From Bolinopsis microptera (Eukaryota > Ctenophora > Tentaculata > Lobata > Bolinopsidae), in assembly GCF_026151205.1 (NCBI RefSeq), contig NC_087073.1, positions 11,230,411-11,294,410 on the forward strand: a DNA stretch of 64,000 bases, read 5' to 3'. Both the position numbers and the translations under genes were made by a program. Of this stretch, positions 1,480 to 50,994 are shown one piece after another (the first letter of the stretch is position 1; each line of letters opens with the position of its first letter). The notes under the pieces were generated by a model. The model made no database searches, was not told where the DNA came from, and worked only from the letters and a program-made list of their open reading frames with translations.

Positions 1480-4400
1480 GACGTATACAAGCTAAAAGAG
1501 GAGTTATCAGTGCTCGAAGAGAGAGATAACAAACACGCTGATGTGCTCAAGGAAGCTGTTCTCAGGGCCGGTAAACTACTCCGCAAGGCACATGCTAGGG
1601 ACAATCAACCCGTACATCTTAAAAGGTTCGTACTTTGTCTATTCTTCATTAGAATGATTTTGAACAATTTGAATGCTGTAATTCTTAATTCAATACTGTT
1701 TATTTTTAATATTCAATCTGTTTGAGGAGTTCTCAAACCATCTGTCAATAGTCGATCAGTGCCCTGATGTAAGCTCTAGAAAGTGGCCTATTGTTTCGAT
1801 CTTGCACATCAAAACATAGAACCTTTGTGGATGTTTTGGGTCAAAAAGGAAATATTCAATCATGAGAAACGAGGATAGCCTATGTGAATGTCCATTTAGC
1901 CTATTCATAATCCAGAACTGTTTAAACCTCAGAACTCTCAAAATGGCATGCATCAGGTGGCTTTGTTTACTTCAAATCTCAGCGAATGTTTTCAAATATG
2001 ACAGGGTTTCTGGAATATGATCAATGCCATAGCAATCATTAAATGGTTATATTGCGTTTAAATGCTCCAATGTTGCATTATTTAAGAATTACTTTGTTGT
2101 TACGTCTAACCTGCATCTTGCCATGCCGATTACTATTAATGTCCATCTCAGCTCTCAGTCCAATTCTACTGAAGTGCGGTTAGTTTAAGTTAGTCTGTCA
2201 ATCGTTTGTTTAATCCAAAACTTTTAAAGTGCATCATTTTTGTAGACCGGCCTCTGAAGTCTGAAGCCTTATATTACCGTAAAAGGTGTCTAGGTTAATG
2301 GTAATTGTACCTGGTACCTCTTATTCTTAACTCCTGCCACACTACTACTATACTGTTCAGGGTTACCAGCTTACCAGGATTACCAGGATTACCAGGGTTA
2401 CCACAGTTACCACAGTTACCACAGTTACCACAGTTACCACAGTTACCACAGTTACCACAGTTACCACACTCATCACACTTACCACACTTACCACAGTTAC
2501 CACACTCACCACACTCACCACACTTACCATACTACTGCTCAGGGTTACCAGCTGTCCTGACCTAGACGTTCCCTTCCCTTCTGGTCCTAAGATAGAGCCC
2601 ACCCAGAAGAGGAAGGTGAAGCAATGTTGGGGTAATAACCCTCCCTCCTGCCCCTCCTCTCCCACCAAACCAACCCCTCCTCCAACTAACGTGTGTCAGG
2701 TGTACACGGACTACGGGGACATAACTCTCTGTACCAGGGTGAGTTGGTGGCAATCTGCCAAGTTAGATATTTGATTACCTGTCTAAGTATCTGCCGATAA
2801 CTATTGCCGATAACTATTGGTAGGCGATTAGGCAGGTCGAGTTCCATGCTGCCGACTATCGCTTTCAAGCCACTTAGCTAACTCAGGTCACTTAAAAGTT
2901 GACAACCGATAGCGCCTGTCTCCAAACCAAACCGTAAATTACGGCGTTGATTACCGTTGCATTACTATTACAGCTTTAACGCATTGGCACTTGAACCAGG
3001 CCAGTAGTTTTAACATTAGGTGACAAGCCTGACAAACCCGAAATGTATTAAATTTTGTTAAATCATACGGTTGAAGGTTGAACTCCGGTAGGTAAATTCT
3101 GCTGAAATACAACCATGCTTGTTGTAGAACTGGACAATAACATAACAAGCCCTAAACCCGGACCCACAAAATGGTAACCTAAACCACATTGCAGGAGCGA
3201 GAGAAGGTCCTGATAATGAAGGACCACGAGAAGGTGGCAGTAAAGTCTCTACGGGCCCCTCGTGATGAGAGCTACCTCCACCACACGCGCCCCTTCAGCC
3301 CCACTTGCACGTGCGAGCCTTGTCGACGTCTTACCGGAGGGACGGACACCAGCCGGCCTCAATCTGCCCGCAGTCTTACCCTCAGCTCTGATAAAAACAC
3401 GGTATGTTTACCAAGGTACATACCACAGTACATAACACGGTATGTTTACCAAGGTACATACCACAGTACATAACACGGTATGTTTACCAAGGTACATACC
3501 AAGATACCGCAGTACATAACACGGTATGTTTACCAAGGTACATACCACAGTACATAACACGGTATGTTTACCAAGGTACATACCACACTACATAACACAG
3601 TATGTTTACCAAGGCGTGGAAATTAGCGAGGATTTTCTGGAATTTGCCTCTTTTCCGCCTAAAGGAAGATTGGAAATTAAAATGCAGGATAGGGTATCGG
3701 GATAGCAGACTTTAAAGTCGGTATGTGCCGATATCAAATTGAGGTGTTGAGGGCCGATAGTCAGAAAGTTCGATCCTTGTCAATATTACACGTGTTGGAA
3801 TTTCTCTAATTACGATATTACAAACTTACAAATAGTTTTGAAGCCAAATATGATAATATTCAGAGTCCATATAAACGTGGAAAGGATTTCCAAATATCTC
3901 TATCTCCCTGCCTAACAACTTAACAAGGTCATAGTGAACATTACATAATGTATAAGATGACGTCTTTACAGGATTTTAGCTTCACGCTGAGCTGATTAAC
4001 TCTAGTTGGGATGAGTTTAAACTAGTTAGACTAACAGTGTTATATATATTAACAGGACACTAAGATGACGTATTCACAGGACGGTAACACGACTCTTGTC
4101 CGACAGCGACTCTTGTCCGACAGAACTATTTCATTGTGTTTGAAGTGATATCTCAAATGTATTTACTTACAGGACACAGAAGACAGCTCCTTGCAGATCA
4201 AGGTAGGAGACAGGGTCCGATGTAGATCAGCTCGTCCGGGATACAATGAGTCCCGAGTGGTGGAGGGTATTGTTGAGTTTATTGGAAAGAGACGGGGTTA
4301 TGGAAAGGGCCTCTTCGTCGGGGTCAACCTGGGAGTACCTCGTGAGTGTGACCTTATGTACTGTTATAAACTTTGTATTTATAGAAATCTTTTAAAGAGA

Positions 4401-6522: not shown

Positions 6523-7508
6523 TCCTACTGAACCATGGACTTTTCAACAGGATTATCTATTTGCTTTAAAATGGAGCTTGAGAAAAATTTAATTAGAAAG
6601 CGCTGACGTGCGAGGAAGCCTGTTTGTTTGACTCAAGGCTTTAACCTAAACTTTTAACCGATGAGCTTGGAAACCCTTCAACTGAACGGCAACGCAATTA
6701 ATAATAGCTTATCCGAACCTTTGAACGTCGGACGGTTAAAAGCGGATTCCATCTGTTTTATTTTCACATGTTTACTGAAAAAAACTAGATATTGCTCACA
6801 CGGCGGAGATATGAGAATATGGAGACTGTTGAAAGCTGTGTGCTGTTAAAACTGTGTTCACGACAGTTCGTCAAGGTATTTTCTACCTGTAGTGTCTCCA
6901 GTTCTGGCGTGTTATCCCTCGATCCACCATTCTTTTTTCTTTACAGTTAGATTTTCTGTGGAGCGGGCTAGTATGACGTCTTCTGCGTTTTCCCTGTTGT
7001 GAATATATTCATTTCCCGGAAACATACTTAGCATAACTTTAACCTGACACTTTTGACTGAGTTGTAGAGATTCTGTTAGAAACGCACGTGGCTTGTCAGC
7101 ACTCAGCGGAGCGAGCTTCCGCATCGCGCAGCTATATAATAAATAGCAGCGCGATATAGTATTAGTAGCATTACCCAACCATGTCAGATAGACTTTGTTC
7201 GACAGTTGTACGTGTGCAGTCCTGATGTTTTGTTTTTCCGACTTTGATTTGATTTGAAACTTTTCCAAGTACATGGAGATACGCAGTAGTGATACACGTT
7301 TTAAACAGAATTATTAACTTTTTGTATCAGTATATTAGACTATTAGAGGTAGACAATATGTATTTTTGTATGCTATATCGCATGTTCTCGTCGCTGTTTT
7401 GTGTTTGTGTTTATTGTAAATAAAAATCAGATATTTATTTTGAATACGTTTGAATACGCTTGTATCTATTGTATCTATTGTTGAATTCTGAGAGCCACGA
7501 AATTTACC
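6523..7508 (+). other. CAP-Gly 3' flank, probable 3' UTR
   Basis: No convincing gene. An AATAAA followed by a T-rich stretch near 7420 is a plausible poly(A) signal for the CAP-Gly transcript. The next gene's ATG lies only about 90 bp further on, so the intergenic space is very short. A 120-codon open frame on the minus strand (6912-7274) has no recognisable domain. Confidence 0.45.
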
Positions 7509-15594: not shown

Positions 15595-16221
15595 TCAGTA
15601 TTTGTATCCGTAAACACCATCCCACTGGGGATCGTAGGGCTCCATCCAGAACTTTCTGAAGAGATGCACCAGCTCTGATCGTTCCAGTCGTCCACTCTTG
15701 TCAGTGTCAGCCTTCTCGAAGAAGGTATAAGCAGCCTCTTGGGGCACATCAAAGGCTTTCATCATGGTCTTGAGCTCTGCAATGTCGACGGTACCATCAC
15801 CGTCATCATCCAGGACATCGTAGTAGGCGTTGGAGAGTAGGGCAATCATGGAGGGTTCGCCACGTCGTTCCCTTTCTCTCTCGGCCTCAGAGAAGACCCT
15901 GTTGGCCTCTACCCAGTCCTCTCGAGTCAGGCCCTTTACTGGATCTACTCCTTTGTTGAGGAAGAAAATGTGGACAGCCTCTCTCATCTTCTCGACCTGT
16001 TCGTCAGTAGCGTTGACCAACTGCCTCATCCTGTCGGGCCAGTAGAGGATCTCTTCCATCATCATCTTGCCGTCACTGTCGAGGTCGAAGGTGTCGAATC
16101 TCTTGTAGAGTCGTTGGAGCATCTTGGGGTGAACGTCCTCAACGTTGAACTGCCAGTCGTTTCCGACACTCCTCAGGTATTTGTAGCTCTCGTTGTTTAG
16201 CTCGTTCATGGGTCCAGGCAT
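15595..16221 (-). CDS. Ca2+-regulated photoprotein, copy 1
   Basis: A 208-residue intronless ORF starting MPGPMNELNNESYKYLRSVG. It has three canonical EF-hand loops, D46-E57 (DLDSDGKMMMEE), D138-E149 (DDDGDGTVDIAE) and D172-E183 (DTDKSGRLERSE). The second EF-hand position has lost its ligands, as in aequorin-type photoproteins. The C-terminus FWMEPYDPQWDGVYGYKY is the hallmark of ctenophore photoproteins. These proteins hold a pre-oxygenated coelenterazine and emit blue light when Ca2+ binds, in the cytosol of photocytes. The protein is identical to copy 2, which lies 385 bp upstream in transcription order. The ATG is fixed by copy-to-copy conservation. The short intergenic space leaves little room for a promoter, so co-transcription with copy 2 is possible. 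Confidence 0.95.
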   Translation of the reverse strand: MPGPMNELNNESYKYLRSVGNDWQFNVEDVHPKMLQRLYKRFDTFDLDSDGKMMMEEILYWPDRMRQLVNATDEQVEKMREAVHIFFLNKGVDPVKGLTREDWVEANRVFSEAERERERRGEPSMIALLSNAYYDVLDDDGDGTVDIAELKTMMKAFDVPQEAAYTFFEKADTDKSGRLERSELVHLFRKFWMEPYDPQWDGVYGYKY

Positions 16222-16606
16222 ATCTTAAGACGCAATTGAATCTTCAGCTAAAGTAGAGAGGGATTAAGTGAATGGAAAAAAGTGCAGGAAGTGCTTTTCA
16301 TAATAATATCTTGAATCAAATGCAGTGCATATCAGTAAATTAATTTGTCATCAAATATAAAATATCAGAAAATATTGAGCAATAGAAAAGCGGCAAAAAA
16401 TTGTGAACCGATGAGATCAATGAGACATCAGAAATATGGTATCAGAAGTAAAATAATATCATAAAATCAATAAATTGGACAGCACAAATTGAAAGATGAA
16501 AAATGGGGTACTACAAGTACGACCGGTCGTCAGATGACCATGTCGTTTGATCGGAATTGTTACATATTCTGAATGAGAAATAAAGATGCAGCTAAGTCGG
16601 GATTGT

Positions 16607-17233
16607 TCAGTATTTGTATCCGTAAACACCATCCCACTGGGGATCGTAGGGCTCCATCCAGAACTTTCTGAAGAGATGCACCAGCTCTGATCGTTCCAGT
16701 CGTCCACTCTTGTCAGTGTCAGCCTTCTCGAAGAAGGTATAAGCAGCCTCTTGGGGCACATCAAAGGCTTTCATCATGGTCTTGAGCTCTGCAATGTCGA
16801 CGGTACCATCACCGTCATCATCCAGGACATCGTAGTAGGCGTTGGAGAGTAGGGCAATCATGGAGGGTTCGCCACGTCGTTCCCTTTCTCTCTCGGCCTC
16901 AGAGAAGACCCTGTTGGCCTCTACCCAGTCCTCTCGAGTCAGGCCCTTTACTGGATCTACTCCTTTGTTGAGGAAGAAAATGTGGACAGCCTCTCTCATC
17001 TTCTCGACCTGTTCGTCAGTAGCGTTGACCAACTGCCTCATCCTGTCGGGCCAGTAGAGGATCTCTTCCATCATCATCTTGCCGTCACTGTCGAGGTCGA
17101 AGGTGTCGAATCTCTTGTAGAGTCGTTGGAGCATCTTGGGGTGAACGTCCTCAACGTTGAACTGCCAGTCGTTTCCGACACTCCTCAGGTATTTGTAGCT
17201 CTCGTTGTTTAGCTCGTTCATGGGTCCAGGCAT
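16607..17233 (-). CDS. Ca2+-regulated photoprotein, copy 2
   Basis: The 208-residue protein is identical to copy 1, with the same three EF-hand loops (residues 46-57, 138-149, 172-183) and the aromatic C-terminus that closes the coelenterazine cavity in this family. This copy has an extended upstream region: a minus-strand TATAAAA element about 210 bp before the ATG, and a pyrimidine-rich CTTTAG in the leader that could be a 5' UTR splice acceptor. It is divergently arranged with the glycosyltransferase gene that starts at 18806. The same divergent pair reappears, inverted and damaged, at 41.5-42.6 kb, which shows that the pair was duplicated as a block. Confidence 0.95.
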   Translation of the reverse strand: MPGPMNELNNESYKYLRSVGNDWQFNVEDVHPKMLQRLYKRFDTFDLDSDGKMMMEEILYWPDRMRQLVNATDEQVEKMREAVHIFFLNKGVDPVKGLTREDWVEANRVFSEAERERERRGEPSMIALLSNAYYDVLDDDGDGTVDIAELKTMMKAFDVPQEAAYTFFEKADTDKSGRLERSELVHLFRKFWMEPYDPQWDGVYGYKY

Positions 17234-17268
17234 ATCTTAAGACGGAATTGAATCTTCAGCTAAAGCAA

Positions 17269-30830: not shown

Positions 30831-30838
30831 GAATCATC

Positions 30839-32328
30839 GGTTCTTTTGCGATAGTCAAAACGCGACAACTAGCGCTGGATGGCGACAACTAGCGCTATCC
30901 AGCGCTAGTTGTCGCCATTCAGCGCTAGTTGTCGCTATCCAGCGCTGGATAACGCTGGCCAGCGCAAAATATATATGTTCGATAATTGTCGCTATCCAGC
31001 GCTAGTTGTCGCCATCCAGCGCTAGTTGTCGCCATCCAGCGCTAGTTGTCGCTATCCAGCGCTAGTTGTCGCTGGCTATGCGACACTGTCGCACGCGATA
31101 GTTTGCGATGGCCAGCGCAACTGGCCATCGCAGAAAACAGTTCGATAACTAGCGCTGGATAGCGACAACTAGCGCTGGATAGCGACAACTAGCGCTGGCC
31201 AGCGGTAAGCGATAGCCAGCGCTGGCCATCGATAGCCAGCGCAAAATGTTTGCGATATTACTTGTCAGCTAGCGCTGGCCAGCGCTAACCAGCGCTGGCC
31301 AGCGCTATCCAGCGCTATCCAGCGCTATCCAGCGCTATCCAGCGCTATCCAGCGCTATCCAGCGCCAGCCAGCGCTAGCCAGCGCAATGTATCAAAATCA
31401 TATACTTGCGATATTACTCTTCAGCCAGCGCTGGCCAGCGCAATATATTTGCGATATTTTTGTCAGCTTAACAGGTGATACTCGTAAAATTGGAAATATT
31501 TTTTCAAATCCAAGTCCAACTCGGTGCGCATATATTTGTAAAGGTACGGTTATAAACCTACATTTACAATCGTCAGCTAGCGTTGGCTTACGAGCTGGGC
31601 GGAGCTCAACTTACCAGGCGGCGCTCAGCCTGTCATTCCGCCGAATCTCTATTCTAATACTAATAGTAATATTGCAAGTATATAGTAATATCGCAAGTAT
31701 TTGATTTTGATACATTGGCATTGCGCTGGCCAGCGCTGGTTAGCGCTGGATAGCGCTGGCCAGCGCTGGTTAGCGCTGGTTAGCGCTGGTTAGCGCTGGT
31801 TAGCGCTGGTTAGCGCTGGTTAGCGCTGGCCAGCGCTAGTTGTCGTTATCCAGCGCTAGTTGTCACGACAATTATCGAAAATTTATCAAAAATTTGTATT
31901 TTGCGCTGGATAGCGACAACCAGCGCTGGATAGCGACAACTAGCGCTAGTTGTCGCTGGCCAGCGCTATAAGTTGTCGCTATCCAGCGCTAGTTGTCGCT
32001 ATCAGTATCCAGCGCTAGTTATCGAACTGTTTTCTGCGATGGCCAGTTGCGCTGGCCATCGCAAACTATCGCGTGCGACAGTGTCGCATAGCCAGCGACA
32101 ACTAGCGCTGAATAGCGACAACTAGCGCTGGATGGCGACAACTAGCGCTGGATGGCGACAACTAGCGCTGGATAGCGACAATTATCGAACATATATATTT
32201 TGCGCTGGCCAGCGTTATCCAGCGCTGGATAGCGACAACTAGCGCTGAATGGCGACAACTAGCGCTGGATAGCGCTAGTTGTCGCCATCCAGCGCTAGTT
32301 GTCGCGTTTTGACTATCGCAAAAGAACC
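30839..32328. mobile_element. Foldback transposon with AGCGCT subrepeats, 1,490 bp
   Basis: The outermost ends are GGTTCTTTTGCGATAGTC and its exact inverse, flanked by the 8-bp duplication GAATCATC (30831-30838 and 32329-32336). The paralogous uninterrupted sequence survives at 34377-34384, so this is a genuine insertion. Each arm is about 600 bp of alternating units such as TAGCGCTGGATAGCGACAAC and AGCGCTATCC, many self-complementary (CCAGCGCTGG). A hairpin module GCGATGGCCAG/CTGGCCATCGC occurs in both arms. The centre (about 31470-31690) is unique and holds GGTGATACTCGTAAAAT and GCTCAGCCTGTCATTCCGCC, which recur in other small elements here. There is no transposase. The architecture resembles Drosophila FB and sea-urchin TU foldback elements. 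Confidence 0.9.
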
Positions 32329-32336
32329 GAATCATC

Positions 32337-32716: not shown

Positions 32717-33300
32717 TTTTAATGATGTTACATTATACATAATAGTTTTTATTTTTGTCTGAAATTTTAAATTTTGATTTTTTAAAAGCAATATTGTAAC
32801 ACATTTGAATCGTATCGATTTATATTATAATAGTTTATTTCTATACATGCAATGTGTTATCCGGATCAGATGTAACATAAGTTGAGCGATGTACATGATT
32901 GATTGATTGAGGAGCACTACCCAGAGGTATCGGGGCCATGTAATTATGGGCACATTTTACTGTGCAGTACCGTGTTTGGTCTCCCGTCAGATTTTACAGA
33001 CGGGGGCAATAATTTATTCGAGTTTATTTTATACGTTATAGGTAATTGCTGTACCTACTCTGTGAAGTTTGAAAAGTATTTAATTTTAAAAAACGATTCA
33101 CTACGTATAATTCATATTATGTACATTCAACTTTGAGTCTGCGTATAGTTTTTAAATATAAACACGAAACATGTATTTTAGAAACCAAACCTCTAAACAA
33201 TATTCATTGTAATTATGCACTTATCGTGTTATGCGAACGGATTGTGGGCATCTGAATTTTTGATAATATCCTTATAATTGTAGGAAGTACATTCATTCTG
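32717..33300. other. Upstream region of the SLC35G-like gene
   Basis: AT-rich, no gene seen. A 77-codon frame at 32903-33136 has no recognisable feature. The promoter of the transporter presumably lies here, but no element stands out. Confidence 0.45.
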
Positions 33301-34308
33301 ATGACGGTCCAGACGGAGTCTCAAGAACGAGAAAGGTTGCTCATAAAATCCTCAAACCTACCATCTCAACAACTTGTGGTGGACGGTAAAACGGTCTTCA
33401 AACAGATTGAAGGAAAACTGCTCATATTTCTAGCTGGATTTATCGGTGTCAGTGTTTTTTCACTGGTTAAAAATAGTACCACTCTGGCTGTTGGCCAGTT
33501 TTCGTCCACAATTTTTTTCTTTCCGTTCTTGTTTCTACTCCCAGCCTTGTTTTTTAAAGAAAAAAACATAGGCTTTGAAGGAAAAGCCAAATATATAATT
33601 CCTCGAGCATTGTTAGGTGGACTTGCAGATATTTTGAAGTTATGGGCAGCTAAAGTGATGGATTATGGTGATAGTGTATCCCTGTTTGCATTGGTTCCTA
33701 TCTTTGCTGCTATTTTTTCTAGGGTTCTTTGGAAAGAAAAATTGAGTATATTTACGATATTGGCATTGTTTATTGGATTGTCCGGAGTTGTTTTAATAGC
33801 TAAACCTACCTTTCTATTTGGAGCTCCGAGTGAAGAAAATAGGAAAGAATATAGTTCCATTTTTGCGTTGGTCCCTCTTTCTGGGGGAATTTTTTTTGGG
33901 CTTGCCTACAGCTTGATGAGAAAAGTTGGAACTGAAGTTAGCCCAATTTTTGTGTCAGCTATTATTTCTCCCACAGCTGTTGTGTACGGAATTATCTTCC
34001 AGTTTATAAGTGGTGACAAATTTGTACTTCCTGAATGTTTTATGGATAGGTTGATTATGTTCTTGGGAGGATTTGGTATGTTTGCCAACCTTCTTCTTCT
34101 TAATCGTGGACTGACTCTCGAAAAATCTGGACCGGGAATTCTCATCCGAAACTTTGATATTGTTATTGCCTATGGAATTCAGATTGTGTTTTTTGACAGC
34201 GTCCCCAATTTTTTGAATATTATTGGAGCACTTTTGGTTATTTCAAGTGCTGTTTTGGTTACTATAAACAAGTTGGTGATCGAAAAATATTTAAAGTACG
34301 AATTTTAG
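33301..34308 (+). CDS. DMT-superfamily transporter, EamA / SLC35G-like
   Basis: An intronless 335-residue ORF starting at ATG 33301. After about 38 hydrophilic residues there are about ten hydrophobic segments in two repeated halves of EamA type. The first half has LLIFLAGFIGVSVFSLVKN, RALLGGLADILKLWAAKVM, DSVSLFALVPIFAAIFSRVL and WKEKLSIFTILALFIGLSGV. The second has LVPLSGGIFFGLAYSLMRK and closes IIGALLVISSAVLVTINKL. The WKE motif after helix 4 is typical of drug/metabolite transporters, including SLC35G proteins. The substrate cannot be predicted. Lack of introns, unlike the CAP-Gly and SLC5 genes here, is compatible with a retrogene. Three broken 3'-end copies lie just upstream. Confidence 0.85.
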   Translation: MTVQTESQERERLLIKSSNLPSQQLVVDGKTVFKQIEGKLLIFLAGFIGVSVFSLVKNSTTLAVGQFSSTIFFFPFLFLLPALFFKEKNIGFEGKAKYIIPRALLGGLADILKLWAAKVMDYGDSVSLFALVPIFAAIFSRVLWKEKLSIFTILALFIGLSGVVLIAKPTFLFGAPSEENRKEYSSIFALVPLSGGIFFGLAYSLMRKVGTEVSPIFVSAIISPTAVVYGIIFQFISGDKFVLPECFMDRLIMFLGGFGMFANLLLLNRGLTLEKSGPGILIRNFDIVIAYGIQIVFFDSVPNFLNIIGALLVISSAVLVTINKLVIEKYLKYEF

Positions 34309-34799
34309 GTTGTTTGGAGGCAGCAACCCTCGCATTGGTGTATTGATACGTAATAGCGGCTCTGTTTTAATAGTATGAATCATCTTCTGATCCTCAATAT
34401 AAGCACATTTTACATTTTACAGATTACTAGATTTCTAACATTATTAGATTTTTTGTTGTTTCTGCTGTTATGTTGTTATTTACTGAATATATTAATTTTA
34501 TCTTTTATCTTCCGACCCTCAATCCTATTCTGTACAAGTAAAAATATGTAAAATCAAATACTTCATAATAATATGTGGATTTTGTATCTGGAGAAATTGT
34601 GTTCTTTTTCATTGACACTCGTCGAATTAAAATTATTTTTGTAGTTTTCTCCGAATAGACTCGAGGGATTAGTTAGCAATAGACACTCCCTGATTCAACT
34701 TTATTCTGAGAATTCGAATGAATTTTACGTTTTCAAAGCCATCTACAAACAATACCTTTATATAAGTCGTATACTTCGATCATTAACTAATTACGGGAA

Positions 34800-35195
34800 A
34801 TTGGTAGATCACCGACCGGCTATAAGCCGGTTATAAGCCGGCTATAAACCGGCTTATAGCCGGCTACAATTTTTATAGCCGGCTATAAGCCGGCTTATAG
34901 CCGGTTAGTAGCCGCTTACATTTGTTGTTGAGCGACGGCTATTAGCCGGTTATAAGCCGGCTATTAGCCGTTTAGGTATCGGCTATAAGAAATTCAGTGA
35001 AAACGGCTATTAGCCGGTTATAAGCCGGCTATTAGCCGTTTAGGTATCGAAAGTGGTTATAAGCCGGCTATAAGCCGGTTATAAGATATTAACTCAACTT
35101 CATCGTACTGAACGATAGTCAGGAGCCGGCTATAAGAAATTCAGCGAAAACGGCTATTAGCCGGTTATAAGCCGGCTATTATAAGCCAGCTGATA
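34800..35195. repeat. Palindromic 11-bp array (GGCTATAAGCC type)
   Basis: Alternating GGCTATAAGCC and GGTTATAAGCC units in both orientations. A longer super-unit (AACGGCTATTAGCCGGTTAT ... GTTTAGGTATCG) repeats at about 34936, 34999 and 35147. Almost every unit is self-complementary, so the single strand folds extensively. No target duplication was found. Confidence 0.85.
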
Positions 35196-35199
35196 AATC

Positions 35200-35600
35200 C
35201 CACGCTTAAAAACCTTCTACCGGTGGCCAGGGATATCTGCAACCGGAACCAAACTGTGCTTCGCACACTCCACGCTTCAGGAGAAGCACTCCCTCCCAAG
35301 AGGATATACTGATTTATTTTGTAGTTACAGTAATACTTATAGTTTTTAATGGTTATGAGATGTTCCGATTGATACTTTAATAATATAATATTGCTTACCT
35401 ATTAAATTTATTAGATACATTACGAACAGATCAATCGTATTTTTCAATTGCTCGTTAATAAATAAATTTTTTTAATAATAAAATTGTGTCCCTGAAAATT
35501 ATATTGCTCATACATATAGTTTAATACTGTCACCAATATAAGTAATATTAATAATGATATCTATCATCATAGTAATAAATAATAATTCATATTGCCCGAA
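35200..35600. other. Intergenic, no gene seen
   Basis: AT-rich spacer between two minisatellites. Confidence 0.5.
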
Positions 35601-35606
35601 TGACCG

Positions 35607-35945
35607 TGCCCCAGGTGGTTTTGCCCGAGATGTGCCCGAGATGTGCCCCAGGTGTGCCTGAGATGTGCCCCAGGTGTGCCCCAGGTGGTTCTGCCCAAGG
35701 TGTGCCCGAGATGTGCCCGAGATGTGCCCGAGATGTGCCCAGGTTCTTTTCCCAAGGTTTCCCAATTACCATGCCCGAATTTTGCCCGAGATGTGCCCGA
35801 GGTGTGCCCGAGGTGTGCCCCAGGTGGTTCTGCCCAAGGTGTGCCCGAGGTGTGCTTTGTGCCCGAGGTGTGCCCGAGGTGTGCCCGAGGTGTGCCCGAG
35901 TTTGTGCCCCAGGTGTGCCCCAGGTGTGCCCCAGATGTGCATCGG
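35607..35945. repeat. 11-bp minisatellite (GTGCCCGAGAT)n
   Basis: Units GTGCCCGAGAT, GTGCCCGAGGT and GTGCCCCAGGT in a higher-order pattern broken by TGGTTCTGCCCAAG. It is open in several frames on both strands (e.g. VCPRCAPG repeats), which is a compositional effect and not evidence of a gene. Confidence 0.92.
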
Positions 35946-35959
35946 CAGATTACCGAGTT

Positions 35960-36590
35960 ACCCAAATTTATATTTATAAGTTTAAAATTATGGAACCTAT
36001 GGATGTGAAGGCTAGTCCTGTATGTTTGGTAAAAATTCTCAACTCTGTTATTCTATAACTTAAGGAAACCCACCCTCAATACTTGCATTATGTTTAATTA
36101 TAGTCTTTGTTAATTGTTTCTGTATACAAATACAATTTAATCTACCTTTATTTCTAAACTGTTTTCAAAAGAATTATTAAACAAATTAGTCACAACAGAT
36201 CCATCCAGGATTCGGACTCGTACATAAGTCAATACGTTGGGAATGTCTGTTTACAAAGATTAAAGTTTTACGTAAACAACTCCCGACCTTCCAGTGACAA
36301 TTACAGGTTAATAAAACAATTGTACTATTTCACTTCTCATCAACTTTAAGCACGTGATCAAGTTACTCATTATCACGACGTGTGAAATTCATTTATTACC
36401 AAACCATTCTCATATTGAGACAATTTTTTCCTAACCAACTGGCCCAAACCCCAGATGATTAAATTTGACGTGACACTATACGACATTTACTCGCTAATTC
36501 TGTTCTTGATATAGATGTGGATACTGGCGGGGAGGTGATAATTGTTTGTTTACGTTTTAGGTGGCGCCTCTATTCAGCAGGTAGAAGAGG
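35960..36590. other. Intergenic, no gene seen
   Basis: AT-rich with no recognisable gene. Confidence 0.5.
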
Positions 36591-36770: not shown

Positions 36771-36775
36771 TACAC

Positions 36776-36925
36776 TGCTGCTAACGGCTGCTAACTGCTG
36801 CTAACGGCTGCTAACTGCTGCTAACTGCTGCTAACTGCTGCTGTTAGCAGCAATTAGCAGCAGTCAGCAGCAGTTAGTAGCAGTTTCTTTGCACTTTAGT
36901 CTCCCTGTGTACTTCGTAGCACTTG
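36776..36925. mobile_element. Foldback fragment with GCTGCTAACT arms
   Basis: A (CTGCTGCTAA)n arm meets its inverse (TTAGCAGCAG) at 36840, without a central core. It ends AGTTTCTTTGCACTTTAGTC and CTCCCTGTG. The same terminus is seen in the element at 47341-47673. Confidence 0.7.
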
Positions 36926-37242: not shown

Positions 37243-37869
37243 TCAGTATTTGTATCCGTAAACACCATCCCACTGGGGATCGTAGGGCTCCATCCAGAAC
37301 TTTCTGAAGAGATGCACCAGCTCTGATCGTTCCAGTCGTCCACTCTTGTCAGTGTCAGCCTTCTCGAAGAAGGTATAAGCAGCCTCTTGGGACACATCAA
37401 AGGCTTTCATCATGGTCTTGAGCTCTGCAATGTCGACGGTACCATCACCGTCATCATCCAGGACATCGTAGTAGGCGTTGGAGAGTAGGGCAATCATGGA
37501 GGGTTCGCCACGTCGTTCCCTTTCTCTCTCGGCCTCAGAGAAGACCCTGTTGGCCTCTACCCAGTCCTCTCGAGTCAGGCCCTTTACTGGATCTACTCCT
37601 TTGTTGAGGAAGAAAATGTGGACAGCCTCTCTCATCTTCTCGACCTGTTCGTCAGTAGCGTTGACCAACTGCCTCATCCTGTCGGGCCAGTAGAGGATCT
37701 CTTCCATCATCATCTTGCCGTCACTGTCGAGGTCGAAGGTGTCGAATCTCTTGTAGAGTCGTTGGAGCATCTTGGGGTGAACGTCCTCAACGTTGAACTG
37801 CCAGTCGTTTCCGACACTCCTCAGGTATTTGTAGCTCTCGTTGTTTAGCTCGTTCATGGGTCCAGGCAT
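37243..37869 (-). CDS. Ca2+-regulated photoprotein, copy 3
   Basis: 208 residues with the same start, three EF-hand loops and C-terminus as copies 1 and 2, and one change: Pro160 becomes Ser (AFDVSQEAAY), between the third and fourth EF-hands. It is intronless. The 3' flank differs slightly from copies 1 and 2 and extends into sequence shared with the inverted copy 5. It is paired with copy 4, 384 bp away, reproducing the copy 1/copy 2 arrangement; the whole tandem pair was therefore duplicated. The role in Ca2+-triggered light emission should be retained unless P160 matters. Confidence 0.94.
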   Translation of the reverse strand: MPGPMNELNNESYKYLRSVGNDWQFNVEDVHPKMLQRLYKRFDTFDLDSDGKMMMEEILYWPDRMRQLVNATDEQVEKMREAVHIFFLNKGVDPVKGLTREDWVEANRVFSEAERERERRGEPSMIALLSNAYYDVLDDDGDGTVDIAELKTMMKAFDVSQEAAYTFFEKADTDKSGRLERSELVHLFRKFWMEPYDPQWDGVYGYKY

Positions 37870-38253
37870 ATCTTGACGGAATCGAATCTTCAGCTAAAGT
37901 AGAGAGGGATTAAGTGGATGGAAAAAAGTGCAGGAAGTGCTTTTCATAATATTATCTTGAATCAAATGCAGTGCCTATACTCAGTAAATTAATTTGTCAT
38001 CAAATATAAAATATCAGCAATTATTGAGCAATAGAAAAGCGGCACAAAATTGTGAACCGATGAGATCAATGAGACATCCGAAATATGGCATCAAAAGTAA
38101 AATATCATAAAATCAATAAATTGGACAACACAAATTGAAAGATGAAAAATGGGGTACTACAAGTACGACCGGTCGTCAGATGACCATGTCGTTTGATCGG
38201 AATTGTTACATATTCTGAAAGCAGAGAAATAAAGATGAAGTTGGGGTAATTGT

Positions 38254-38882
38254 TCAGTATTTGTATCCGTAAACACCATCCCACTGGGGATCGTAGGGCT
38301 CCATCCAGAACTTTCTGAAGAGATGCACCAGCTCTGATCGTTCCAGTCGTCCACTCTTGTCAGTGTCAGCCTTTTCGAAGAAAGTATAAGCAGCCTCTTG
38401 GGGCACATCAAAGGCTTTCATCATGGTCTTGAGCTCTGCAATGTCGACGGTACCATCACCGTCATCATCCAGGACATCGTAGTAGGCGTTGGAGAGTAGG
38501 GCAATCATGGAGGGTTCGCCACGTCGTTCCCTTTCTCTCTCGGCCTCAGAGAAGACCCTGTTGGCCTCTACCCAGTCCTCTCGAGTCAGGCCCTTTACTG
38601 GATCTACTCCTTTGTTGAGGAAGAAAATGTGGACAGCCTCTCTCATCTTCTCGACCTGTTCGTCAGTAGCGTTGACCAACTGCCTCATCCTGTCGGGCCA
38701 GTAGAGGATCTCTTCCATCATCATCTTGCCGTCACTGTCGAGGTCGAAGGTGTCGAATCTCTTGTAGAGTCGTTGGAGCATCAATTGGGGTGAACGTCCT
38801 CAACGTTGAACTGCCAGTCGTTTCCGACACTCCTCAGGTATTTGTAGCTCTCGTTGTTCAGCTCGTTCATGGGTCCAGGCAT
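38254..38882 (-). pseudogene. Photoprotein copy 4, frameshifted near the N-terminus
   Basis: Relative to copy 3 there are two extra bases at codon 34 (ATCAATTGGGG against ATCTTGGGG on the plus strand, about 38781-38786). The first 33 codons are thus out of frame with the remaining 175. All three EF-hand loops and the C-terminus are intact downstream, and an in-frame Met pair sits just after the shift at 38784, so an N-terminally shortened protein is conceivable. A conserved upstream region with a TATA-like element at 39073-39083 (minus strand) is retained. This is a recent pseudogene, an allele, or a sequence error. Confidence 0.85.
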
Positions 38883-41818: not shown

Positions 41819-41874
41819 AGATAACGCCGTTTAATCCATCTTTGCTTTAGCTGAAGATTCAATTCCGTCAAAAT

Positions 41875-42570
41875 ATGCCTGGACCCATGAACGAGCTAAA
41901 CAACGAGAGCTACAAATACCTGTGGAGTGTCGGAAACGACTGGCAGTTCAACGTTGAGGACGTTCACCCCAAGATGCTCCAACGACTCTACAAGAGATTC
42001 GACACCTTCGACCTTGACAGTGACGGCAAGATGATGATGGAAGAGATCCTCTACTGGCCCGACAGGATGAGGCAGTTGGTCAACGCTACTGACGAACAGG
42101 TCGAGAAGATGAGAGAGGCTGTCCACATTTTCTTCCTCAACAAAGGAGTAGATCCAGTAAAGGGCCTGATTCGAAAGAACTGGGCAGAGGCCAACAGGGT
42201 CTTCTCTGAGGCCGAGAGAGAAAGGGAAAGACGTGGCGAACCCTCCATGATTGCCCTACTCTCCAACGCCTACTACGTTACTGGGCCGCGCTCAGCCTGT
42301 CATTCCGCCTAATCTCTATTCTATATGTTTATGAACATGATACCCTGGGGTCCCCAGGTAACTACTACGATGTCCTGGATGATGACGGTGATGGTACTGT
42401 CGACATTGCAGAGCTCAAGACCATGATGAAAGCCTTTGATGTGCCCCAAGAGGCTGCTTATACCTTCTTCGAGAAGGCTGACACTGACAAGAGTGGACGA
42501 CTGGAACGATCAGAGCTGGATGGAGCCCTACGATCCCCAGTGGGATGGTGTTTACGGATACAAATACTGA
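41875..42570 (+). pseudogene. Photoprotein copy 5, disrupted by MITE and deletion
   Basis: Begins with the family start MPGPMNELNNESYKYLWSVG and reads in frame to codon 134. There an 84-bp element (42278-42361), flanked by the 8-bp duplication CTACTACG, interrupts the third EF-hand segment. The gene resumes and keeps EF-loops 3 and 4. It then has a 23-bp deletion between two CTGG tetranucleotides (junction 42516-42519) that removes VHLFRKFW and shifts the C-terminus out of frame. There are further substitutions (R17W, and T99I, E101K, D102N, V104A). It is non-functional as a photoprotein. It lies inverted relative to the other copies. Confidence 0.92.
42278..42361. mobile_element. 84-bp MITE inside photoprotein copy 5
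   Basis: Imperfect inverted ends TTACTGGG and CCCAGGTAA; 8-bp target duplication CTACTACG on both sides. All other photoprotein copies provide the empty site. The inner GCGCTCAGCCTGTCATTCCG and AATCTCTATTCTA also occur in the centre of the foldback element at 30.8-32.3 kb. Confidence 0.9.
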
Positions 42571-47340: not shown

Positions 47341-47673
47341 CACAGGGAGATTAAAGTGTAAAGAAACTGCTGCTAACTGCTGCTGACTGCTGCTAATTGC
47401 TGCTAACTGTTAACGGGTGATACTCGTAAAATATTTGTTCCATGTCCAGGACCGCGTACCGACGAGTCCAACTCTGAACTCGGCGCGCGTCCTGGTAGGT
47501 TGTAAACCTACAATGCTAACTTCTGCTAATGGCGCGCGCGCATGCGACAGTAGCAGTTAGCAGCAGTTAGCAGCAATTAGCAGCAGTCAGCAGCAGTCAG
47601 CAACAGTCAGCAGCAGTCACCAGCAATGAGCAGCAGTTGGTAGCAGTTTCTTTGCACTTTAGTCTCCTTATGT
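47341..47673. mobile_element. Foldback element with GCTGCTAACT arms and shared core
   Basis: The left end CACAGGGAGATTAAAGTG plus (CTGCTGCTAA)n is mirrored by a right arm (AGCAGCAGTT)n ending GCACTTTAGTCTCC. The core (47414-47520) has GGTGATACTCGTAAAAT, AGTCCAACTC and TGTAAACCTACA, in the same order as the core of the AGCGCT foldback at 31.47-31.56 kb. No target duplication recognised. Confidence 0.8.
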
Positions 47674-47689
47674 TTCACCAACTGCATGT

Positions 47690-48510
47690 ATTGTAATTTT
47701 AACCAACTGTATTTGCAGCACACAGGGGTGCCATAGTGCAAATAAACTGGTGCTAACTGCTACTAACTGCTACTTTGTATCACGTTGTGACACCCACGGT
47801 CGTTTCACCGTTTCCACGGTCGTTTCACTAGGTTCACTTTATCGTCCTGACGATACAGGGGGAGCCGCGCACTTCGTGCGCGGCGGGTCATACAACGTAT
47901 GACAACTGCTACTAACTGCTGCTAACTGCTGCTAACTGCTACTAACTGCTATTAACTGCTACTAACTGCTACTAACTGCTACTAACTGCTACTAACTGCT
48001 ACTAACTGCTACTAACTGCTACTAACTGCTACTAACTGCTACTTACTGCTACTAACTGCTACTAACTGCTACTAACTGCTACTAACTGATACTAACTGCT
48101 ACTAACTGCTACTAACTGCTACTAACTGCTCAAAGGAGGGGCTAAGTGCAAAGAACCTGCTGCTCACTGCTGCTCACTGCTGCTCACTGCTGCTCACTGC
48201 TGCTCACTGCTGCTCACTGCTGCTCACTAAACTGCTGCTCAATGCTGCTCACTACTGCTCATGACTGCTACTAACTGCTGCTAACTGTTGCTAACTGTTG
48301 CTCACTGCTGCTCACTGCTGCTCACTGCTGCTCAGTTTGTAGCAGTTTGTAGCAGTTGAGCGCGTGTCTTTACTGCGCAATGCACGCCGCGCGCAACTGC
48401 TACAAACTGCTACAAACTGGCACTAACTGCTACAAACTGGCACTAACTGCTACTAACTGCTACTAACTGCTACTAACTGCTGCAAACGGCGCGCGAATGC
48501 GTGGGCGCGA
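47690..48510. repeat. 10-bp satellite arrays (ACTAACTGCT, GCTCACTGCT, inverse)
   Basis: ACTAACTGCT repeats fill 47906-48130, GCTGCTCACT units 48160-48320. The polarity then inverts (GTAGCAGTTTGTAGCAG) around a GC-rich core near 48360-48395, after which CTACAAACTG and CTACTAACTG units return. The layout suggests further foldback elements of the 47341 type. Confidence 0.85.
47775..47905. mobile_element. 131-bp triloop-hairpin MITE, inverted copy
   Basis: Ends TTGTATCACG and CGTATGACAA. 8-bp duplication CTGCTACT at 47767-47774 and 47906-47913 (inside a repeat array, so weaker evidence). The three-hairpin block is conserved: TATCGTC/GACGATA, GCCGCGCAC/GTGCGCGGC and GTCATAC/GTATGAC. The first has lost its GAA loop but kept both arms. 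Confidence 0.85.
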
Positions 48511-50584: not shown

Positions 50585-50994
50585 CTAAATCGCTCGCCCA
50601 AATTTTAAGAAAACTCTTGTGAAAAGGCCCTGAGGGTATGATAGCAATCTGATTCGGTGTATTTTGGACGCTGAATCATCCCCCATGACTTAAGGTAAAA
50701 CTACTTCCCTGGAGAGTTATGGGCAAAAAACTGTTTTGTTCACGTGACAGGCTAGTTCAACACGAATTCGATTGTTTAGGGCTCGGGTTAGGGTTGTGGT
50801 TAGGGTTATGAATAGCTTCGGGGTTATGGTTAGGGTTAGGGTTGTGGTTAGGGTTGTGGTTAGTGTTGTGTATAGTTTTGGGGTTATATTTAGGGTTAGG
50901 GTTGGGAATAGGGTTTATGTAAAACCGTTTTGTTTGGCTGTGAAAACGTAAAAACTCTAGAAACGTGATAATATTTGGGCGAGCGAATTAGTAG
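50585..50994. mobile_element. TIR element with telomere-like core
   Basis: Ends CTAAATCGCTCGCCCAAAT and, inverted, ATTTGGGCGAGCGAATTAG. The middle (50780-50925) is a degenerate TTAGGG/TTGTGG array (GGGTTAGGGTTGTGG). A partial left end lies at 43720. Confidence 0.7.

Follow-up and report, generated by a model that had tools for sequence, protein, structure and literature searches.

The window analysed here, a 64,000-nucleotide stretch of the Bolinopsis microptera genome, contains a gene-less, 1,490-bp inverted-repeat element at positions 30839-32328, and we are close to certain that its family is a foldback DNA transposon that has moved recently. The foldback family appears to be new, and it is probably driven by a Merlin transposase.

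Results

Structure of the window element

The element starts with GGTTCTTTTGCG and ends with the inverse of GGTTCTTTTGCG, and the terminus GGTTCTTTTGCGATAGTC is present on both ends in inverted orientation relative to each other. An 8-bp duplication, GAATCATC, brackets it at 30831-30838 on the left and at 32329-32336 on the right, as the first-pass annotation of this DNA had proposed when it named the element a foldback transposon. The outer left arm (323 nt, 30839-31161, plus strand) opens with GGTTCTTTTGCGATAGTC and holds a near-palindrome of 74 bp at its positions 24-97; the outer right arm (32006-32328, minus strand) is its inverse with 1 mismatch in 323 nt, i.e. 99.7% complementarity. Further inside lie an inner left arm made mostly of 10-bp AGCGCT units (31162-31441, plus strand), a core without AGCGCT (31442-31719, plus strand) and an inner right arm, again mostly of AGCGCT units (31720-32005, minus strand). 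Arms of 600 bp had been described earlier; this length holds for the arms taken whole (about 30839-31441 and 31720-32328), whereas pairing in register is confined to the outer 323 nt, the inner arms pairing out of strict register only (82-90%).

An inverted-repeat search returned arms of 325 nt (30837-31161 and 32006-32330) with a rounded complementarity of 100%, of which 2 bp are flank and lie outside the element. Because the inverted repeat reaches 2 bp into the flank, a duplication of 4, 6 or 8 bp can be read in the window; the other copies of the family fix it at 8 bp and rule out the 4- and 6-bp parsings.

AGCGCT palindromes were found 50 times in the 1,490 bp against a naive expectation of 0.36, and 38 of the 49 intervals measure exactly 10 bp (20/49) or 20 bp (18/49). 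Moreover, a single arm taken as single-stranded DNA is more stably folded than 100 shuffles of it (z -15.1). Both the palindromes and the nested self-complementary units that would let each strand fold, two points of the earlier annotation, are therefore borne out, and the element has the long inverted arms of short tandem, self-folding repeats by which foldback elements are recognized.

The site without the insertion is also preserved in the window. The paralogous flank at 34264-34473 (plus strand), which covers the 3' end of an EamA-type transporter ORF (33256-34308) and the sequence beyond it, holds a lone GAATCATC at 34377-34384. When the flanks of the element were joined over one GAATCATC and aligned to this paralogue, the 211-column alignment ran unbroken across the insertion junction and contained 8 mismatches and a single 1-base gap, in agreement with the empty site noted at first in the duplicated transporter 3' region.

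A dispersed family with common ends and 8-bp duplications

Termini were counted in the 264.65-Mb genome that holds the window, with the reversed sequence as control. The exact 18-bp terminus is present in 325 copies and a 38-mer terminus with at most 3 mismatches gives 361 matches, against 0 in the control for both. Many copies with common ends had been expected from the window alone, and absence of the termini elsewhere, named as the outcome that would speak against a transposon, did not occur. The termini form 121 adjacent inverted (head-to-head) pairs of less than 15 kb, which range from 95 bp to 13 kb in length (median 1,565 bp), while 83 of the 325 termini are unpaired.

Both flanks were read for 46 pairs, that is 40 including the window element and 6 more; the first 40 are a non-random sample, as their choice favoured the longest class. 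An exact 8-bp duplication was found in 37 of these 46 pairs, and none of the 37 extends to 9-11 bp. One mismatch was seen in 4 pairs (L037, L063, L098, L102) and two mismatches in one (L097), and 4 pairs have no target duplication (L041, L058, L061, L067). The other adverse outcome foreseen, copies lacking duplications, is thus limited to these four and does not apply to the family. Among all loci read, further copies beyond the first 40 included, we counted 43 distinct exact 8-bp insertions; the first duplicated base is G or C in 32 of them and the last in 30, which points to a target preference. The copies are dispersed and flanked by target duplications, and they share their ends while arms and middle vary, as in a foldback family.

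The outer 58 bp have a mean identity of 99.3% between elements (76 ends) and the outer 190 bp a median identity of 98.9% (mean 96.4%); the biggest class of identical ends comprises 30 of 70 ends. Since the ends are nearly identical between elements, the movement must be recent. There was no sign of arm homogenisation over these 190 bp, as the two arms of an element are no more alike than the arms of different elements (96.4% within versus 96.4% between elements).

Minimal copies

Four copies of 120 bp (L037, L038, L100, L101) are located at separate sites. They consist of positions 1-97 of the window arm (1-96 in L100) at 98-99% identity, followed by the terminal 23 bp inverted, and the target duplication is exact in three of them and a 7/8 match in one. 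Given these separate sites and exact duplications, about 60 bp per end is probably enough for movement, and the long arms look dispensable for it. The target duplication is likewise exact in a copy of 102 bp (L099) and imperfect in those of 95 and 101 bp. Like MITEs, the copies of 95-257 bp carry no gene and are miniature inverted-repeat elements, most of those read having exact or near-exact duplications; they differ from MITEs in that the 120-bp form is almost one hairpin, matching one arm of a larger element.

Contents of the long copies and the core

In 6 of the 21 copies longer than 2 kb (L031-L036), inspection of the ORFs of at least 80 aa revealed no transposase. L031 has frames of low-complexity repeat, L033 and L034 contain nested or inverted repeat sequence, and L035 and L036 lack long internal ORFs. 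No Pfam family was matched by five further ORFs of L031, L033 and L034. The autonomous, transposase-bearing copy that the first-pass annotation hoped would assign the superfamily was found neither in these six nor in the 121 pairs, for Merlin, MULE and the scored hAT matches. L032 is a foldback copy that carries, at 2359-3765, a 468-aa ORF with a GIY-YIG domain (Pfam E 6.3e-7), which may come from a Penelope-like retroelement. In the 4.9-kb copy of L033 (501-5389), the same 162-aa frame lies on both strands (1917-2405 and 3745-4233), which suggests that a smaller copy was duplicated in inverted orientation. Behind an unpaired terminus, L070 has two C2H2 zinc-finger ORFs.

The core of the window element contains an abundant 17-mer, GGTGATACTCGTAAAAT, at 31474-31490, with 2,413 exact copies in the genome and 0 in the reversed control. 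It occurs within at least two distinct repeat families and recurs in a longer common stretch with motifs like GTCCAACTC and GGTTATAAACCTACA. Its other window site (47416-47432, near 47.4 kb) falls in a second, different repeat that has AACTGCTGCT units. A 184-bp stretch of the window core is matched in 7 of 40 elements (the window copy, L032, L033, L034, L050, L053 and L056). This module is far commoner in the genome than the foldback and was probably captured or nested. The second repeat (36774-36885 and 47365-48481) is itself foldback-like, with 10-bp AACTGCTGCT/AGCAGTTAGC units in both orientations.

A structured RNA in the core was considered and rejected: an Rfam scan of the window gave no family at gathering level, the lax threshold yielded RAGATH-26 alone (17.6 bits versus a gathering score of 86.3), and the folding z was -1.3 to -1.8. 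In L034, Rfam reports MIR474 above the gathering score at 6724-6833; the hit sits amid AGCGCT units close to where the copy ends on the right, and we regard it as arm hairpins matching by chance. Arms of this family can be mistaken for microRNA genes.

Comparison with Merlin elements

According to PMC8101967, Merlin elements have TIRs of 24-462 bp that begin with a conserved GG, make duplications of 8-9 bp and can contain internal tandem repeats; they are reported there from three ctenophores, Mnemiopsis having remnants only. A search of that paper returned no occurrence of 'foldback', 'palindrom' or 'non-autonomous'. The foldback family resembles Merlin in several respects. Its ends read GGTTC, the position of this terminal 5'-GG being set by the duplications in 37 of 46 copies; the same 37 duplications are exact at 8 bp; and its arm length falls within the TIR range given by PMC8101967. 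The host phylum carries Merlin, and the Merlin elements of this genome share the GG ends and arms built as unit arrays.

The Merlin transposase domain PF12762 (DDE_Tnp_IS1595) has 58 matches in the genome, and Pfam confirmed it on four ORFs. In five elements bearing PF12762 (L073, L075, L077, L087, L092), the ends are GG and the 8-bp duplications exact; the L075 frame contains a stop. At the Merlin-type insertions read, G or C occupies the first and the last duplicated base in 5 of 6 cases each, a target preference like that of the foldback family. Among the Merlin elements examined, L092 is the closest architectural match to the window foldback. It is 3,919 bp long, with 705-nt arms of 98% complementarity containing unit arrays, an exact 8-bp duplication (CTTCCACT) and an internal 240-aa ORF with the transposase domain.

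Seven arms were measured, that of the window and six Merlin arms, and all have short repeated units. The Merlin units are centred on CCATGG in the L071 family, contain CCGCGG in L077, and are built on GCCGGC in L092 and on CTTAAG in L091, both with an 11-bp period; those of the L076 and L093 families are non-palindromic 11-bp units. The period is 11 bp in four of the Merlin families examined and about 15 bp in another, versus 10/20 bp in the window foldback. A 10-mer test shows repeats but no self-complementarity in the arms of Merlin families C, D and E, although those of family C contain 6-bp palindromic units. No duplication was found at the assigned ends of L091. As the comparison was made among Merlin elements alone, arms of this construction may not be special to Merlin.

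The foldback differs from Merlin in that no transposase was seen inside it, and none of the copies sharing its termini was found to carry one. None of the 58 PF12762 matches is inside the 121 pairs and none is within 6 kb of the 325 termini, so that a DDE_Tnp_IS1595 transposase was found neither in the element nor in a partner with the same ends. The partner may be absent from the assembly or have altered ends, and we describe the element as Merlin-like. Its terminus has no clear relative at 22 Merlin loci: the outer 32 nt scored 9-13 there and 8-13 in shuffles (5 each), 5 of the 22 loci exceeded their own shuffles by 1-2 points, and the match of the highest-scoring locus (L078, 13) lies outside the element. 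Two candidate relatives were discarded, GGTTCTTCTGCG in L072 and GGTTCTTTTGTT in L081, L082 and L092, as these loci have alignment scores of 10-11 against shuffle maxima of 10-12 and none of the four matches is at an element end. With no Merlin, MULE or scored hAT match in any of the 121 pairs, we infer Merlin membership from the shared features, and we consider it likely.

Two other stretches of the window resemble Merlin elements of this genome. The first (34795-35190, right limit approximate) has the terminus GGGAAATTGGTAGATCACCGACCGGCTATAAG with CCGGCTATAAG units and shares its type with an 847-bp element in L092 (5390-6236) whose ends are GG and whose 8-bp duplication is TAAAAAAC; it is probably another gene-less Merlin-type element. 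The second (35590-35962, left limit approximate) is a TGCCCGAGGTG unit array ending in the terminus common to the Merlin transposase loci L076, L078 and L080, and is likely a gene-less Merlin relative.

Photoprotein ORFs or fragments, five in all, nearly identical and lying in both orientations, are also present in the window (15595-17236, 37243-38799 and 41851-42312). For the ORF at 15595-16224, berovin (E 1.4e-125) and mnemiopsin 1 (E 3.8e-125) come far ahead of the next photoprotein, obelin (E 5.8e-19), which supports a ctenophore origin of the DNA. TTAGGG-like interstitial repeats are present at 50776-50915.

Discussion

Foldback elements often have no assigned transposase. The family studied here shares with FB of Drosophila, TU of sea urchin, Tetris and Galileo the long repeat-built inverted arms, a variable middle, transposase-less copies and self-folding. 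The comparison with FB and TU that had been drawn at first sight stands for the architecture and goes no further; duplication lengths are 9 bp in FB, 7 bp in Galileo and 8 bp in TU. Tetris has units of about 220 bp, whereas those of the window family are self-complementary and spaced at 10/20 bp, and its duplications are 8-10 bp instead of exactly 8 bp (PMC4079207).

Duplications of 9-11 bp are typical of Mutator-like (MULE) elements, and none of the 37 exact cases reaches 9 bp or more. Nevertheless, a MULE or P-superfamily origin has precedents, as Tetris, whose arms are repeat arrays, has been assigned to Mutator (PMC4079207) and Galileo, with its foldback-like ends, to the P superfamily. 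MULE domains have 88 matches in this genome, but 0 of the 88 is inside a pair, and the one weak match near the family (28.6 bits, 4.3 kb from an unpaired C5 terminus, on its inner side) is about what chance provides (around 0.9 expected). We regard this origin as unlikely. Our data point to Merlin and not to Mutator as suggested earlier for foldbacks (PMC4079207), and the window family probably differs in placement from both Tetris and Galileo, although a transposase-bearing copy was not recovered.

The same type of element could also be mobilised by a hAT transposase. hAT is a common group with 8-bp duplications, the length found here, and it is abundant in this genome (150 of its 365 candidates were scored, and all 150 match), yet none of these 150 matches is inside any of the 121 pairs. 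hAT ends read C/T-A-R-N-G (YARNG), unlike the GGTTC of this family, and the hAT duplication pattern nTnnnnAn is not seen, T being at position 2 in 4 of 43 insertions and A at position 7 in 7 of 43. A hAT origin is thus quite improbable. Finally, the short repeats of the arms, the unpaired termini (83/325) and the pairs without duplication (4/46) might suggest that this is no transposon but a palindromic satellite multiplied through segmental duplication or by errors of assembly. Precise ends adjoining exact 8-bp duplications at 43 distinct sites exclude that reading for the family as a whole, the clean unoccupied paralogue of the window insertion also speaks against it, and we give it practically no weight.

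A non-autonomous, cut-and-paste foldback DNA transposon, with a transposase in trans that is most likely Merlin, is therefore the account we favour, and we think it rather probable. A Merlin (IS1595-like DDE) transposase supplied in trans would act at the terminal GG and on about 60 bp of outer sequence, joining the ends to the target across an 8-bp stagger, presumably by cut-and-paste. The 10/20-bp spacing of the units would put repeated protein sites on one helix face, and exchange between units might let the arms grow and shrink. Ctenophores are reported to have a GC-rich loop-anchor motif (PMC12221973), and a link to it was considered. As for the minimal copies, a template switch at the 74-bp palindrome of the arm (24-97) could copy the terminal 23 bp inverted and so make the 120-bp mini-element in one step.

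A broader proposal can be made only tentatively, and we hold it to be somewhat doubtful: in this ctenophore the Merlin superfamily may have repeatedly evolved foldback-type arms of often self-complementary short units with helix-phased protein sites, hairpin template-switching making transposition-competent mini-elements from them. If true, the element generates its own MITEs, and the system would be a Merlin-driven foldback with a direct route from foldback to MITE.

By titles and abstract starts among the matches listed, the open-licence literature yielded no description of a ctenophore family of this kind, in line with the first-pass annotation, which knew of none, and likewise none of foldback-type Merlin elements. 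The copies of 102-120 bp limit the sequence needed for movement and hint at the origin of miniature elements. Near-identical palindromic copies on many chromosomes are, moreover, likely rearrangement hot spots. With a recent family and transposase-bearing Merlin elements with similar arms in one genome, the source of the foldback architecture becomes testable.
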